Below, piece by piece: positions 13,212 to 19,991 of a DNA stretch of 22,161 nucleotides; position 1 is the first letter of the stretch; every line of letters begins with the position of its first letter. Source of the stretch: a bacterium (lineage in GTDB: Bacteria; B130-G9); contig JAGHCW010000025.1 in the NCBI GenBank assembly GCA_021160245.1, positions 1 through 22,161 on the forward strand. The letters are read 5' to 3'. Both the position numbers and the translations under genes were made by a program. Under the pieces are notes generated by a model, which was not told the origin of the DNA, searched no databases, and was given only the letters and a program-made list of their open reading frames with translations.

Positions 13212-14288
13212 ATGCATAAGACTTTGGGGTCGGTTTTTTTTGGTCGGATAATCTACCACTTTAGTAGATTTACTCTTGCAGCCCGCATGGGGCCTGTTGT
13301 CATGTCGATCATAGTCTTCCTTGCTGTGCCATCTCAAGGCGCCACTGATCCCCTTTATGTGGAAGTGAACCTCATCGGGGGATACTCATCAACCGAACGT
13401 TGGCTTGGAAGGAGCATGTCGCAGAAGAACGCGCTCGGCTTTGAGTACTTCCGCAAGTTCTCGAACGAATATGGTGATTATTTGACCGGTGACTTTCAGC
13501 TTCGGCTTGCCTACGACCCGACCTATTCCCGTCGAGACGCCTGGGCTATCGAGGTTCACAATGCCTGGGCCGAATACAAAATCGGCTTAGGAAAGAAGCT
13601 CAGAGCAGGCCATTTTGCGCCGGCGTTCGGGCTGGAGCCGCTCATCGACACTCATGGCACAATTCTCCAGACGCTTGCCCCAATGAACATCGGCTTCAAG
13701 AAGGATTGGGGGTTAGGGTTCTCGGGGATTCTTGGCGCCTATGACTATCAGCTTGCCGCACAGATAGGTTCTGGGATGGGTCTTAGGCGCAGAGACTCAA
13801 GCTGTCTGTTTTCTGGCCGAATCGGATCGCCGGCCGGCAATGACCTGCAATACGGGCTGAGCCTGCTCTACGGCGCGACGCTGAAGGCGAAAAGCATGAG
13901 CACAATTCCGCGTCCCGATCTCGTCCAGGATGATGCGGTCCTCAAAAAACGGGTCGGCTTGGACGCGCAATACATCTTTGGTTCCTACGTGTTCAAAGCC
14001 GAGGGAGTCTTTGGCGAGAATGACGGGATGGAGGTTGCGGGAGGACTTTTCGAGGTGGATTACACCGTGCCTGATCTTCAGGAACTTGAGCTCCAATTGC
14101 AGGCCAGCCTCTGGGACAATGACCCATCAGACGGTGAAACTGAGAACACCTCAATGACCGTCGGCCTGGAATATGCGATCAATTCGGACCTGACGCTCCG
14201 GGCAGCATGGTCCACAGACTGCCTTTCCGATAACAGCACGCAAAAGGACGAAGCGTGTCTTCAGGTTTACTATTTCGCACCTTTCTAG
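13212..14288 (+). CDS. Predicted outer-membrane beta-barrel protein, porin-like
   Basis: 358 aa from ATG 13212, which follows AGAGGA; the ORF is open upstream to 13107 and a further ATG lies at 13287. An N-terminal basic segment followed by MGPVVMSIIVFLAVPSQGA (start of the hydrophobic stretch at residue 26) looks like a signal peptide cleaved before TDP. The mature part alternates short polar and hydrophobic beta strands with aromatic ends, contains a porin-like stretch (KLRAGHFAPAFGLEPLID) and ends in phenylalanine (QVYYFAPF), the usual recognition signal for barrel assembly. Similarity is to porin P/OprO-type diffusion channels, but only at the pattern level. First gene of a six-gene envelope operon, nine bases ahead of the next. 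A run of eight T residues sits in the signal region. Substrate is unknown. Confidence 0.75.
   Translation: MHKTLGSVFFGRIIYHFSRFTLAARMGPVVMSIIVFLAVPSQGATDPLYVEVNLIGGYSSTERWLGRSMSQKNALGFEYFRKFSNEYGDYLTGDFQLRLAYDPTYSRRDAWAIEVHNAWAEYKIGLGKKLRAGHFAPAFGLEPLIDTHGTILQTLAPMNIGFKKDWGLGFSGILGAYDYQLAAQIGSGMGLRRRDSSCLFSGRIGSPAGNDLQYGLSLLYGATLKAKSMSTIPRPDLVQDDAVLKKRVGLDAQYIFGSYVFKAEGVFGENDGMEVAGGLFEVDYTVPDLQELELQLQASLWDNDPSDGETENTSMTVGLEYAINSDLTLRAAWSTDCLSDNSTQKDEACLQVYYFAPF
13234..13270 (+). repeat. T8 homopolymer followed by a 7-bp inverted repeat
   Basis: Eight T residues at 13234-13241 lie in the first codons of the barrel gene, followed by AATCTAC at 13250-13256 and its perfect complement GTAGATT at 13264-13270 around a 7-base loop. 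The tract could permit polymerase slippage, or mark that translation really begins at 13287 and this is untranslated leader. Confidence 0.55.
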
Positions 14289-14297
14289 GAGAGAAGG

Positions 14298-14972
14298 ATG
14301 AACAAGAAAACGGCTGCTGGCATCTCGATAATCGTGTTAGCCCTGCTTCTATTGCAGACTATAGAGCTTCAAGCCGCGGTGGGTTGCTCCCTAAACGACC
14401 CGGACCGCGACATCAAACGGATATTCCCGAAATCGACGGGTTACAGGTCCGAGTTCATATCAATTGCTGAACGAGGCGGACAGTCGCTTCTGAAACAGAT
14501 AGAGGCAAAGCTCGGAGACAAGTTCGATACGGAATACGAGGCGATTGACGTGCCATACTCTTACTACGTGGTTCTCACGGGCAAGGAAGTCATCGGATAC
14601 GTTCACGGGGTGAATCAGAAGGGCATGTTCGGTGGCATGCAGATAATCCTGGCGACCAGCCTTGATGGCGAGCTTCTGGACATGTACTATCAGAAGGTCT
14701 CGTCGCCCGAATCGCGGAAGTTCAGGGACAAGTCTTTCACAAAGCAGCTTGTGGGACTCTCGCTTTCGGACTTCTACCATCATGACGAGATGCAGGGGCG
14801 CACATGTCCATCAGATAGAGTAGGGGCCATCAAGGACCCCACCAAGAAGAGCCACGATGACTTTGTGGCGACGCTACGGGGCATAAAGAAGAACCTGATA
14901 CTGCACAGCATTTTTATTCTAAAGAGAAGCATTGATGACCCCCACAAGACCGTCAAAGGAGAAAAGCGATGA
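14298..14972 (+). CDS. Exported FMN-binding-domain-like protein (RnfG/NosR-related pattern)
   Basis: 224 aa, ATG preceded by AGGAGAGAAGG. A signal peptide or single anchor is at 1-26 (ISIIVLALLLL, then ELQAAVGC). Residues about 95-200 follow the FMN_bind pattern seen in RnfG, NqrC and NosR: a YVHGVNQKGMFGGMQIILAT core strand pair, DGELLDMYYQKVSSPESRKF in place of the usual E/H-rich turn, and VGAIKDPTKKS at 175-185, which aligns position for position with the D-A-x-S-G-A-T-x-x-S flavinylation motif; T182 would be the threonine that carries FMN by phosphoester bond. The flanking residues differ from consensus, so covalent flavin is only possible, not shown. Such proteins pass electrons on the periplasmic side. 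Its stop overlaps the next start in ATGA. Confidence 0.65.
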   Translation: MNKKTAAGISIIVLALLLLQTIELQAAVGCSLNDPDRDIKRIFPKSTGYRSEFISIAERGGQSLLKQIEAKLGDKFDTEYEAIDVPYSYYVVLTGKEVIGYVHGVNQKGMFGGMQIILATSLDGELLDMYYQKVSSPESRKFRDKSFTKQLVGLSLSDFYHHDEMQGRTCPSDRVGAIKDPTKKSHDDFVATLRGIKKNLILHSIFILKRSIDDPHKTVKGEKR

Positions 14973-15343
14973 ACTTGAGAGGCAAGACTATAAGAATGGG
15001 GCTGCTGGTTTTGATCGGCGCATTGCTTGCCGGCTGCGGAGGCGGCGGTGAGAGATTCGGCAAAGAGATCGTGATTGATACTACCACCCAGGCACGCGAC
15101 ATCCTCTCTCGTCCGGACGAGTTCAACGGCAAGACCGTCAGGATGGAGGGGGAGATAACACGAGAATGCCCCACCGGCTGTTGGCTCGACTTGAAGGATG
15201 AGACGGGAGTGGTATTCGTTGACTTGGCCCCATCGGGTCTCGCCATCCCGCAGAAAGTGGGGTCAAAAATAGTCATCGAGGGTAAGGTTGTCAAACGCCG
15301 AGAAAAAACCATGATTATCGCGAAAGGTGTTGAAATCAAATGA
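14969..15343 (+). CDS. Lipoprotein with OB-fold-like domain
   Basis: 124 aa. The signal has a basic N region, a hydrophobic core and lipobox LLAGC with lipidated C23; the +2 residue is Gly rather than Asp, so outer-membrane sorting is expected. Residues 45-124 look like a small OB-fold barrel (FNGKTVRMEGEI, WLDLKDETGVVFVDL, GSKIVIEGKVVKR), reminiscent of tRNA_anti-like or DUF4920 lipoproteins. A CPTGC pair (C67, C71) sits in the loop after strand 2 and could bind metal or form a disulfide. Coupled by ATGA overlaps to both the FMN-binding-like gene and the permease gene, suggesting a periplasmic partner of that ABC complex. Function is unknown. Confidence 0.75.
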   Translation: MNLRGKTIRMGLLVLIGALLAGCGGGGERFGKEIVIDTTTQARDILSRPDEFNGKTVRMEGEITRECPTGCWLDLKDETGVVFVDLAPSGLAIPQKVGSKIVIEGKVVKRREKTMIIAKGVEIK

Positions 15344-16524
15344 AACTTCTAATGATAGCGTTCAAGAATCTCAAGCGCAGAAAGCTCCGCTCATTGTTCA
15401 CGATAGGCGGTGTAGCGATAGCGGTGGCCGTTCTCGTCAGTCTCTTAGGCTTCAGCGCGGGCTACAAGAAGGCCTTGACGAACGACATTGACAAAATGGG
15501 CTATCAAGTCTTGGTTACGGCAAAAGGGTGCCCCTACGAGGCGGCCACGCTGATGTTAAAGGGTGGAGGCGGGCTCCGCTATATGGAGCAAGATGTCTAT
15601 AATGGCATCGTATCCGATGAGCGCATCGACAAGGCTACGCCTCAGTTGATCCACACTGTTTACGACCCCGACCGGCTGGATGGCCGCGGAGGATTCGCAT
15701 TATATGTGGGGATCATGAAGTCGCATCTTGAACTCAAGCCCTGGACAAAATTCAAATCAGGCAAGTGGTTCACAAAGGACGACGCTGACGAGGTCATCAT
15801 GGGATTTGAGGCGGCCGAGCTCGAGCAGCGCTCTGTAGGCGACAAGATATTCATTCCCGGTATCGAGAAGATTCTGACAGTAGTCGGCATTTTCGAGAGG
15901 ACCGGGACGCAGGATGACGGAGTGATCTTTCTTCCGCTCAAGAGTGCTCAGCAGCTCTTTGACCTGAAAGACAAGATCAGCGGTATCGGCATAAAGCTCA
16001 AGAACATCGAGGAGTTGGGGCAGTTCGAGGAGGACATGTATGAGGTTCCGGGCACGCAAGTCATAAGCATGGCTCAGGTTAAGGGAACGTTTTTGAACCT
16101 CGTCTCAAGCGCCAAGGTCCTTGTAACCTCAGTCGCCATTATCGCGGTCTTTGTGGCGGCCATCGGCGTCGTCAACACCATTCTGATGTCGGTATTTGAG
16201 CGGACACAGGAGATCGGCGTCATGAAAGCCATCGGAGCGTCCAAGCTCGACATCTTCCGCCTCATCTGGATGGAGACCATCCTAGTCTGCACACTGGGCG
16301 GGATCGCAGGCAATATCGGCGCACTACTGGGAGGCAGCATTGTGGAACGCGTCGTGAAGGGCCTGCTGCCGTACGCGCCAGAGGGCCAGATTGTTCTCAT
16401 CACGCCGACTGCTCTGCTCACATCGCTCATCGGAGCAATCATTCTGGGGCTCGTCGCCGGCATCTATCCTGCATATCGCGCCTCGTCAATGCGTCCGATT
16501 GAGGCGATCAGGAGCGGGGAGTAA
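15340..16524 (+). CDS. MacB/FtsX-type ABC transporter permease
   Basis: 394 aa. Topology is that of MacB/LolC/FtsX-family permeases: one N-terminal helix at about 18-40, a large periplasmic domain at about 41-260 (MacB_PCD), and a C-terminal FtsX domain with three helices near 265-290, 310-340 and 360-385, containing the coupling region FERTQEIGVMKAIGAS. These proteins are mechanotransmitters or lipoprotein/substrate extractors that work from the periplasmic side, usually as a dimer with two ATPases. One cysteine, C64 in KGCPYEAAT, lies at the start of the periplasmic domain. Only one permease gene is present although two ATPase genes follow. ATGA overlap with the lipoprotein gene; the next start is four bases after its stop. 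Confidence 0.92.
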   Translation: MKLLMIAFKNLKRRKLRSLFTIGGVAIAVAVLVSLLGFSAGYKKALTNDIDKMGYQVLVTAKGCPYEAATLMLKGGGGLRYMEQDVYNGIVSDERIDKATPQLIHTVYDPDRLDGRGGFALYVGIMKSHLELKPWTKFKSGKWFTKDDADEVIMGFEAAELEQRSVGDKIFIPGIEKILTVVGIFERTGTQDDGVIFLPLKSAQQLFDLKDKISGIGIKLKNIEELGQFEEDMYEVPGTQVISMAQVKGTFLNLVSSAKVLVTSVAIIAVFVAAIGVVNTILMSVFERTQEIGVMKAIGASKLDIFRLIWMETILVCTLGGIAGNIGALLGGSIVERVVKGLLPYAPEGQIVLITPTALLTSLIGAIILGLVAGIYPAYRASSMRPIEAIRSGE

Positions 16525-16528
16525 TGCG

Positions 16529-17221
16529 ATGAGTGATGCAATCATCAATGCCCAAAAGCTGAAGAAGGTTTATGAGCTTCCGGCTGAGAAGATCGTCGCG
16601 CTAGACGAGATCGACGTCGGTATCAGAAAGGGCGAGTTCGTTGCCATTATGGGTCCGTCCGGGGCGGGAAAGACGACGCTATTAAACCTCATCGGCTGCC
16701 TCGACGGGCCGACGGCGGGGTCGCTCAACGTCCTTGACCACAATCTATCCCAACTGAAGGAGAGGCAACTGGTGTTGCTGAGGCGAGGGAACATCGGCTT
16801 TGTCTTTCAGGACTTTTTTCTTGTATCGAGCCTGACTGCGCTCGAGAATGTGGAGCTTCCGCTTGTCTTCGCCAGGATGCAGCATAAAAACGGCAAGGCT
16901 GCTGACCTCTTAGATAAAGTGGGCTTGAGCCATCGGCTTAACCACAGGCCATTCGAGCTATCAGGTGGCGAGATGCAACGCGTCGCCATAGCTCGGGCGC
17001 TTTCCACGTCGCCCCAGATACTGCTTGCTGACGAGCCAAGTGGCAATCTTGACATGAAGAATGCAAGGTCAATCTTCGATTTGTTCAGGCGCTTCAACGA
17101 GGAGGAAGGGGTTACCGTGCTCGTTGCGACCCACAATGCGAGGCTTGCCCACACTGCGGACAGAGTAATCCACCTTGCGGACGGCAAGATTGAGAGTGAG
17201 GAGGTGTTGAAGAATGGTTAA
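16529..17221 (+). CDS. ABC transporter ATPase, canonical MacB/LolD type
   Basis: 230 aa from ATG 16529, preceded by GGGGAG at good spacing; the frame is open upstream but overlaps the permease. All nucleotide-binding motifs are intact: Walker A GPSGAGKTT at 42-50, Q-loop Q94, signature LSGGEMQR at 144-151, Walker B LLADEP at 165-170 with catalytic Glu, D-loop GNLD at 172-175 and switch His at 202. The family drives MacB/LolCDE/FtsX-type permeases. It overlaps the second ATPase gene by 8 bases. Confidence 0.94.
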   Translation: MSDAIINAQKLKKVYELPAEKIVALDEIDVGIRKGEFVAIMGPSGAGKTTLLNLIGCLDGPTAGSLNVLDHNLSQLKERQLVLLRRGNIGFVFQDFFLVSSLTALENVELPLVFARMQHKNGKAADLLDKVGLSHRLNHRPFELSGGEMQRVAIARALSTSPQILLADEPSGNLDMKNARSIFDLFRRFNEEEGVTVLVATHNARLAHTADRVIHLADGKIESEEVLKNG

Positions 17222-17903
17222 GGTGATAGAGGCGAGCGGGGTAAAGAAGCATTACCAGCGAGGACCGGAAACGGTTAGGGCGCTCGATGGCGTCGATTTT
17301 GGTATCTCGTCCGGGGAAATGGCCGCCATCGTGGGACCATCTGGCTCAGGCAAGACGACGCTTATGAATCTCATCAGCTGCCTCGACTCGCCAACATCCG
17401 GCATGTTGGAAATAGCTGGTCAAGATGTGACCGGATTCTCTGAGTCGCAACTTATCGAGATTCGCCGCAAGAACATCGGCTTCATCTTTCAGCGGCCTCA
17501 TCTGATTCCAACTCTAACTGCAAGAGAAAACGTCGAGCTGCCGTTTATTTTCAGCAAGCAGAAGATGAATGGAGACGTCATATCCCAGAAGTTGGACGTT
17601 GTTGGGCTGAGAGGCAGGAACCATATTCAGGTCAGGATGCTCAGCGGAGGAGACATGCAGCGGGTTGCGATTGCCCGGGCGTTGGTTCTAAATCCGAAGG
17701 TCCTGATAGCGGATGAGCCGACTGCCAGATTCTCAACCCGGGTGCGAATTGGCATGACAGAGCTCTTCAGGCAATTGGTTAGGTCGGGCCTTGCGGTGTT
17801 CATCGCCACGCACGACCTCGATCTGGCCGGAAGCTGCGACAGAATGATCCACCTTCAGGACGGTGTCATCGTGCCAAAAGAAATGTCCAGCCTCTACGCG
17901 TGA
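17214..17903 (+). CDS. ABC transporter ATPase with altered D-loop
   Basis: 229 aa from ATG 17214, with GAGGAGG upstream. It belongs to the same MacB/LolD-type family as the preceding ATPase, with Walker A GPSGSGKTT at 41-49, Q-loop Q93, Walker B LIADEP at 164-169 with Glu and switch His at 200. Two departures are visible: the signature reads LSGGDMQR (143-150), and the D-loop, normally GNLD or SALD, reads ARFS at 171-174 (bases 17724-17735) with no change in length or frame. The Asp of the D-loop, which contacts the opposite nucleotide site, is therefore missing. With one permease gene and two unlike ATPases, a heterodimeric ATPase pair with one weakened site is likely, but a homodimer of the first ATPase is also possible. 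Confidence 0.92.
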   Translation: MVKVIEASGVKKHYQRGPETVRALDGVDFGISSGEMAAIVGPSGSGKTTLMNLISCLDSPTSGMLEIAGQDVTGFSESQLIEIRRKNIGFIFQRPHLIPTLTARENVELPFIFSKQKMNGDVISQKLDVVGLRGRNHIQVRMLSGGDMQRVAIARALVLNPKVLIADEPTARFSTRVRIGMTELFRQLVRSGLAVFIATHDLDLAGSCDRMIHLQDGVIVPKEMSSLYA

Positions 17904-17997: not shown

Positions 17998-18062
17998 CCG
18001 GCTTATGTGATAGTGTCTAAGCAAGCGCCATCATAATCCTGTCAAATCGAATGGAGGGAGAC

Positions 18063-19991
18063 ATGAGAGCAGCAATAGTATGCATCATCGTGTCCTTTGC
18101 GTTGCTGCCCATCGTAGCGACCGCCCAGCCAACAATCACCATTTACACCGACGCCGACGCGTATCAATCCGGCGATACAATCGAGGTTAGTTTGTCTGCT
18201 GAGAATCTTGGCGAGGGAATGGCAGTTGGGGTCTATGTTGGCCTTCTGACGCCCGACGGCGGTATATACGCTGTTCAATGGGACGGATGGAGCGGCAGCC
18301 TCGAGCCCTGGATACCTGACATTCATGTCCCCGCCCGGTTCAGCATGGACTCGACGCCGTTTTGGTGGTTCGACCTGCCCAGCTCAATGCCACCAATAGA
18401 GGAACCAGGCGACTACAACTTCGCAGTCGTCCTAACGCTTCCGGGCGCCCTGCACTGGGTAAGCGAGCTGAGCCTCGCCCCCTTCACAGTTGACGCCTCG
18501 CCCGGCTCGCATTGCTACATCAACGAGCAAACGGGCAGCGATGGCAACAATGGGTCTGAAGTCTCCCCGTGGAAAACGATAACCCACGCTCTCAATTCGG
18601 TGGACGCCTCCGAGAGCGATCCCGTGACTATTCACGTCGCTGCCGGCACATATTCCGCCTCGACCAACGGCGAGACCTTTCCGCTGAATATGAAGAGCTG
18701 GGTCTCGCTGTCCGGTGAGGATCGAGATAGCACGATACTCAACGCAGAGAATGAGGCATATCATGTGATCTGCTGTGAGAATGTGATGCAGCTCACGATA
18801 GAGGGTCTCACAATAGCCGGTGGGAGAGCAGACACCAAATGGCCGCCCGACGCTGATTGCCTCGGCGGGGGCATATACTGCTCAAACTGCCAAGGAGGCG
18901 ACTCGCTAGCGATTCAAAACAACAGGATTTCAGGCAACTCAGCGGACAGCGGCGGTGGGATATGCTGCAGGTTTAGTCTGCCGCTGATTTGGAACAACAT
19001 TATTGAAGGCAATCTTGCCGACTCAAGCATTACGGCGGCCGGCGCCGGCATATTCTGCACTGAATACAGTTCACCGACCATCACAGACAACAAGATTTCA
19101 GACAACTCTGCTAACTTTGGCGGCGGTATATCGTGCCTCAAAGGGAGTTCGCCGACCATCGAAGACAATATCATAATTGGTAACTCGGCAGATTTTAGTG
19201 GTGGTGCAATAAACTGCTATGATTCACCGATGATTCTGGACAACCTGATCTCGGGCAACTCCGCGGGAGCAGGAGGCGGGATATACTGCAACGGCTCGGC
19301 GACGATTCAGAACAATAGCATCTCGGAGAATACCACAACCGGGCATGGAGGCGGTATTCACTGCGACTGGTCCGACAAATCAACCATAATTGACAATATG
19401 ATCACCAGCAATTCTGCCGTGTGGTTCGGACATGGAGGCGGCATATACTGCACTGAATACAGCTCTTCGATGATCTTTGGCAACGCAATTATCATGAATT
19501 CCGCATCTCATAAGGGTGGCGGCGTGCATTGCTCTCAGAACAGCTGGCCTGATATTCTGAATAATGTCATTGCTAGCAACCTCGCCGAAGACGGCGGAGG
19601 GATTTACTGCTATGGATGTCCGCAGGTTATCGGATTCAACACAATCACAGGTAATACGGCCAGCTCAGATGGCGGAGGGATTTACTGCGACTCCTCGGTA
19701 CTGCCGACGATCATCGATTGCATCATCTGGGGTAACGGAGACGATCTGTATCACTGTTCGGCCACGTATTGCTGCATTGAGGACAACGATGCCGGTGAGG
19801 GCAACATCCACGAGGATCCGATCTTCGTTCCGGGGCCGTTCGGAGATTACTATCTTGACCCTTCAAGCCTCTGTATAAACGCCGGCAGCAGGATGACAGT
19901 CGATGCTGACCTCTCTGACCGGACAACTCAGGCCGACGGCACGCCCGACACCGGGACGGTAGATATGGGCTTCCACTATCCGATTCCGTGA
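18063..19991 (+). CDS. Exported right-handed beta-helix protein with cysteine in each turn
   Basis: 642 aa from ATG 18063, chosen because GGAGGGAG at 18053-18060 precedes it and it starts directly at a signal peptide (MRAAIVCIIVSFALLPIVATAQ). Residues about 22-145 are an Ig-like beta domain. A DUF1565-type start (YINEQTGSDGNNGSEVSPWK) follows, then a parallel beta-helix with eleven turns, each ending in GGGIYC or a variant, interleaved with PTIxDNxISxNSA. The C terminus (DPIFVP...DYYLDPSSLCINAGS, then DTGTVDMGFHYP) matches the closing segment of choice-of-anchor-Q beta-helix proteins. No membrane anchor or sorting domain is visible. Such helices often bind or cleave polysaccharide, but no catalytic site is recognisable. 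Likely surface or secreted; expressed separately from the upstream operon. Confidence 0.88.
   Translation: MRAAIVCIIVSFALLPIVATAQPTITIYTDADAYQSGDTIEVSLSAENLGEGMAVGVYVGLLTPDGGIYAVQWDGWSGSLEPWIPDIHVPARFSMDSTPFWWFDLPSSMPPIEEPGDYNFAVVLTLPGALHWVSELSLAPFTVDASPGSHCYINEQTGSDGNNGSEVSPWKTITHALNSVDASESDPVTIHVAAGTYSASTNGETFPLNMKSWVSLSGEDRDSTILNAENEAYHVICCENVMQLTIEGLTIAGGRADTKWPPDADCLGGGIYCSNCQGGDSLAIQNNRISGNSADSGGGICCRFSLPLIWNNIIEGNLADSSITAAGAGIFCTEYSSPTITDNKISDNSANFGGGISCLKGSSPTIEDNIIIGNSADFSGGAINCYDSPMILDNLISGNSAGAGGGIYCNGSATIQNNSISENTTTGHGGGIHCDWSDKSTIIDNMITSNSAVWFGHGGGIYCTEYSSSMIFGNAIIMNSASHKGGGVHCSQNSWPDILNNVIASNLAEDGGGIYCYGCPQVIGFNTITGNTASSDGGGIYCDSSVLPTIIDCIIWGNGDDLYHCSATYCCIEDNDAGEGNIHEDPIFVPGPFGDYYLDPSSLCINAGSRMTVDADLSDRTTQADGTPDTGTVDMGFHYPIP
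18863..19692 (+). repeat. Eleven degenerate coding repeats (beta-helix turns with GGGIYC motif)
   Basis: Repeats of about 22-33 codons, each containing Gly-Gly-Gly-Ile-aromatic-Cys or a close variant (GGGICC, GAGIFC, GGGISC, GGAINC, GGGIHC, GGGVHC). The DNA is diverged between copies, so these are old structural repeats and not recent duplications. Confidence 0.85.

Follow-up and report, generated by a model that had tools for sequence, protein, structure and literature searches.

A conserved six-gene envelope operon combining a MacB/Lol-type permease, a dedicated porin and an FMN_bind-fold protein lacking the flavinylation site, possibly for soft-metal handling

MacB-type permeases, which belong to the type VII ATP-binding cassette (ABC) machines, work by mechanotransmission (PMC5985334), and in Campylobacter (FetMP-FetABCDEF) and Salmonella (FetMP-Fls) MacB-like permeases and an ATPase accompany periplasmic proteins of the metal or redox kind (PMC10783030, PMC6083913, PMC7285068). 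Here, we describe a six-gene operon (g1 to g6) that joins a permease of this general kind to a porin and two cysteine-bearing periplasmic proteins. It lies on contig JAGHCW010000025.1 (assembly GCA_021160245.1) from a bacterium of GTDB lineage B130-G9, and the 22,161-nucleotide stretch that was analyzed is referred to below as the window. We propose, with a probability of about 0.5, that the operon specifies an ATP-driven system spanning both membranes, which handles a soft metal outside the cytoplasm, Cu(I) being the likeliest.

An earlier note on this DNA, made from the letters alone, had described an operon of six genes, and the coordinates agree: all six share the plus strand, no junction exceeds 9 bases, and from g1 to g6 the genes are joined by a 9-base gap, two successive ATGA overlaps, a 4-base gap and an 8-base overlap (Table 1). 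The product classes it had assigned were largely borne out, by Pfam for the g1 barrel, the MacB-type permease g4 and the ATPases g5 and g6, and by lipobox and structural model for the OB-fold lipoprotein g3. Resemblance of g2 to FMN_bind proteins (named for flavin mononucleotide [FMN]) was recovered by family profile and model, whereas g2 alone had no Pfam FMN_bind match.

The operon was then placed in a comparative setting. Only four genomes sample the window's phylum; two carry the operon, and the second (G001) has all six genes in the same order, with 71% identity to the window for g2 and 88% for g4. Among 386 diverse genomes searched with the permease, 15 had a relative at an E value of 1e-50 or better; flanks were examined for 14 loci, most of which unite genes for the porin, g2, the permease and an ATPase. 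When 84,980 species genomes were scanned with a C-terminal permease pattern not involving the GCP motif described below, 80 loci were recovered, and nearly all of those with sufficient flank were ordered porin-g2-(g3)-permease-ATPase. Altogether, the permease-only searches yielded about 90 related loci, most of them from metagenome bins, and the operon gene order recurs at dozens of loci, which are spread over about twenty phyla.

In the reverse test, a g2 profile produced strong matches (E value of 3e-28 or better) in 13 of 372 genomes, all at the permease locus, in agreement with the permease searches. Below these matches there was a gap, followed by weaker FMN_bind relatives that include the window genome's own RnfG-like protein. 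The porin family occurs once per genome, at the operon, with the exceptions of G304, where the match is on another contig, and G228, which has a weak extra match; g1 was accordingly rejected as a general porin, an identity that the earlier note had held would reduce the operon to an accident of packing. Because gene order is conserved, strong g2 matches occur only at the permease locus, and the porin is dedicated, the sequence comparisons support the conclusion that the operon is one conserved envelope system, as that note had supposed, and no accident of packing.

Distance matrices of the component families correlate at r values of 0.70 to 0.90 (null maxima, 0.18 to 0.32), to which shared species history contributes. 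The permease tree has two main clades, one of 29 rows that includes the window and mostly has g3, and one of 51 rows that lacks g3 and often has a YtkA-like protein upstream. Phyla are mixed in both, which fits transfer of the gene set as a unit, with binning errors possible for single loci. A Massilia plasmid of mine-tailing origin carries the gene set as well, behind an ArsR/SmtB gene. No named system like the six-gene set was found in a literature search that covered open-licence papers only, and MacB and ABC transporters go unmentioned in an eLife survey of flavinylation.

Table 1. Positions in the window of the operon genes and their conserved motifs (pLDDT, predicted local distance difference test)
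Feature	Position	Strand	Description	Evidence
g1	13212-14288	+	Porin_O_P-like barrel with signal peptide; dedicated outer-membrane porin	Pfam PF07396 E 1.4e-4; once per genome, at operon
g2	14298-14972	+	periplasmic FMN_bind-fold protein without flavinylation site	AlphaFold pLDDT 91; RnfG/NqrC Z 10-13
g3	14969-15343	+	lipoprotein (lipobox Cys23), OB fold	model pLDDT 90; OB-fold matches including YgiW
g4	15340-16524	+	MacB/Lol-type (type VII ABC) permease	MacB_PCD and FtsX above cut-off; profile matches to MacB, Lol, FtsX structures
g5	16529-17221	+	LolD/MacB-type ATPase	canonical signature, D-loop NLD
g6	17214-17903	+	second ATPase	signature LSGGD
g2 invariant Cys30 codon	14385-14387	+	directly past signal peptide	invariant column, 60 sequences
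g3 CPTGCW (motif ECPxGCW)	15167-15184	+	Cys67 invariant, Trp72 nearly so	alignment of 27 sequences
g4 GCPYEAA, subfamily motif GCPxExA (G63-A69)	15526-15546	+	97/98 permeases; invariant columns	
g6 altered D-loop TARFS (Asp replaced)	17721-17735	+	similar change in second ATPase of other two-ATPase loci	

The permease g4 matches FtsX (E value of 2e-20) and MacB_PCD (8e-19) in Pfam, and its profile matches among solved structures are MacB, YtrF, LolF/E/C and FtsX. The motif GCPxExA is present in all permease copies but one, which is a fragment, and is probably periplasmic, since it sits shortly past the first predicted membrane helix. Permeases of the g4 type form a distinct MacB/Lol-type subfamily. 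GCPxE is missing from permeases beside DUF2318 genes and from a Pelobacter plasmid relative; lacking GCPxExA, the Pelobacter and Vibrio plasmid permeases were set aside as outgroup relatives. The Pelobacter locus (L117, plasmid pPRO1, 686-7839) encodes in a row a CsoR-type regulator, a P-type ATPase, an HMA protein, DUF2318, an FtsX-like permease and an ATPase, and so places a MacB-like permease different from the g4 type in a copper-type cluster.

Both g5 and g6 match ABC_tran above cut-off, with LolD and MacB as the best NCBIfam models. This kinship raises the alternative that the operon exports lipids or lipoproteins or maintains the envelope in the manner of Lol or MacB, its metal-linked neighbors being incidental. 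We consider this very improbable: LolCDE equivalog cut-offs in NCBIfam were missed by g4 (88 bits versus 362 for LolC/E) and g5 (231 versus 308 for LolD), the operon has a dedicated porin and a cysteine motif, and, as shown below, metal-type operators are enriched ahead of it. Where a locus has two ATPases, the D-loop is normal (NLD) in the first and altered (xLE, or RFS in the window's phylum) in the second, whose signature is LSGGD, LDGGD or similar. What the earlier note had called two unlike ATPases is thus, as judged from these motifs, a recurrent unequal pair wherever both ATPases were read. Loci L110, L113, L114 and L115 (from WOR-3, Armatimonadetes and another bacterium) have two tandem permeases; the complete ones also have two ATPases.

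The g2 family profile reaches RnfG, and RnfG and NqrC structures topped the fold search with the g2 model (Foldseek E value of 1e-5; Z score for RnfG alone, 12.4 to 13.1). None of the 76 family members has the S/T-G-A-T flavinylation site; the ITGATIS of RnfG aligns with the lost motif. A role for g2 in FMN redox or flavin chemistry was rejected on this ground. The earlier note's guess of redox or cofactor handling consequently stands only in part, with metal handling as its best-supported branch. Elsewhere in the window's genome, two FMN_bind domains lie side by side (G000:C235:2632-3236). Another locus (L180, G041:C48, 3249-7859) encodes a weakly g1-like porin, an FMN_bind-like protein in which the flavin site is absent, a YtkA/FixH-like protein containing His and a small Cys-rich secreted protein, with no permease detected, and is perhaps a related metal locus.

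The lipobox of g3 reads LLAGC. Its nearest relative by sequence profile is YgiW, and a DUF4920 match is weak, below the Pfam cut-off. Family members have a lipobox or a membrane anchor. The porin-family profile had no match among solved structures. Two loci (L030 in G278 and L031 in G141) have g3-g4-g5 without g1 and g2, and L030 adjoins type II secretion or pilus-like genes. The Cys-Pro pairs of g4 (invariant GCP) and of most g3 proteins (ECP) resemble heme-binding CP motifs, and HrtBA, a MacB-type heme exporter, is named (as HrtAB) as a MacB homologue (PMC5985334). Heme or another tetrapyrrole is nevertheless an unlikely substrate, given that the CP pair is absent from g2 and that the neighbors encode metal-ion sensors and metal-binding proteins rather than heme functions.

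Those neighbors carry the case for a metal. CsoR-family repressors are encoded upstream in relatives (10 by Pfam among 79 neighbors, 13 by clustering), and all nine CsoR proteins aligned keep the Cys-His-Cys metal ligands. Near the start of eight of the nine genes lies an ATACCCC-N3-GGGGTAT-type palindrome that fits the published type-2 CsoR operator consensus, ATATACCCCTNAGGGGTATAT (PMC3902906). Type-2-like palindromes number 13 in 1.26 megabases of loci, whereas mononucleotide shuffles predict 0.35; of the 13, 12 are located 325 to 835 bases ahead of the first core gene. Further neighbors include YtkA-like proteins (16 by Pfam, 28 by clustering), YHS (5), Cupredoxin_1 (2, one alongside CsoR), CDF, ArsP_1, P-type ATPases, TlpA and small Cys-rich secreted proteins; rough pattern searches of the flanks for ArsR and multicopper oxidases found nothing. 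Taken together, these associations suggest a soft metal, with copper as the first candidate. Since CsoR repression is relieved by excess metal, as established for the family, we favor export as the probable form of handling.

Metal delivery rather than export is a somewhat unlikely alternative: enzymes outside the cytoplasm might receive copper or another metal from the system, much as proposed for NosDFY-NosL and nitrous oxide reductase, or the metal might be imported via the porin. YtkA/FixH-like and cupredoxin neighbors would equally suit the supply of metalloenzymes, porins can take part in uptake, and the MacB-like FetBCD transporter aids iron uptake in Campylobacter (PMC10783030). However, relief of CsoR by metal excess fits detoxification better, and no metalloenzyme gene recurs at the loci.

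Several observations weigh against copper export. CsoR-family genes are absent from the window's genome, and palindromes of the above type from the window itself, so the metal link of its operon is by orthology. CsoR or a P-type ATPase is found at a minority of loci only, FeoAB as well as ArsP_1 and CDF turn up as neighbors, and nickel, cobalt, formaldehyde or persulfide may also be sensed by members of the CsoR family. Exit via the porin is a supposition, and the operon has no adaptor. As the earlier note had remarked, neither adaptor nor TolC is encoded among the six genes; a MacA-type adaptor and TolC were also absent from the most frequent neighbor families, the rest of the genome not having been searched. 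Finally, the single cysteines could do thiol chemistry instead. Traffic in thiols, persulfides or disulfides would suit the one conserved cysteine in each of three envelope proteins and the TlpA or DsbD-type genes adjoining some loci, and the persulfide sensor CstR belongs to the same family as CsoR (PMC10318464). We regard it as improbable, because the sensors retain the metal-site histidine, g2 without a flavin site leaves no evident electron carrier, and no rhodanese or sulfur genes recur.

For soft-metal export, we infer the metal, the direction, the order of hand-over and a window operon that acts like its relatives'. By the precedent of MacB, the ATPases would power the permease, which would work mechanically in the periplasm and not as a pump across the inner membrane. 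Metal would be captured at GCPxExA, handed to the Cys-bearing tethered OB protein g3 and FMN_bind-fold g2, and released via g1. More tentatively, the operon may represent a new and widespread class of metal system, in which type VII ABC movement passes Cu(I) or another soft metal along single-Cys periplasmic proteins, including an ex-flavoprotein, to a dedicated porin with no adaptor or TolC. If so, many little-known, mostly uncultured phyla would own an envelope metal system on the MacB principle, type VII ABC machines would have a wider range of tasks, a flavoprotein fold would have been reused without its flavin, and families annotated just as hypothetical or MacB-like would gain a testable function.

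Downstream of the operon (18051-19991), the window encodes a secreted repetitive protein with the look of a right-handed beta-helix, probably unrelated.

Compared with described systems, the operon shares with MacAB-TolC, LolCDE, FtsEX and HrtBA a MacB_PCD and FtsX permease and a LolD/MacB-type ATPase, and the mechanical principle is probably common to all. It differs from MacAB-TolC and its type VII kin in its dedicated porin, its FMN_bind-fold and OB partners and its GCPxExA motif, and in having no adaptor or TolC gene in the operon. The Fet systems resemble it in setting MacB-like permeases and an ATPase beside periplasmic proteins, but they carry DUF2318, FTR1, P19 and thioredoxins, and their published descriptions include neither a porin nor an FMN_bind-like or OB gene. 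Permeases beside DUF2318 score far lower than the g4 subfamily, FetB and FetC themselves not having been compared. With no DUF2318/FtrD-like partner in the window's genome (no PF10080 match) and the DUF2318-linked permeases distant, membership in the Fet iron systems was rejected, and the parallel to the P19-FTR1 locus drawn by the earlier note is a distant one only. The g2 protein has the fold of RnfG and NqrC, from which it departs in its N-terminal Cys motif and lost flavinylation motif; g3 shares its OB fold with YgiW (BOF) and DUF4920 proteins and differs in its lipid or membrane anchor and the invariant Cys of ECPxGCW. In envelope location and, in relatives, in probable CsoR control and copper-type neighbors, the system resembles CsoR-CopA/CusCBA efflux and NosDFY-NosL delivery, while CusCBA pairs a resistance-nodulation-division (RND) pump with a TolC-like exit where this operon pairs an ABC drive with a porin.
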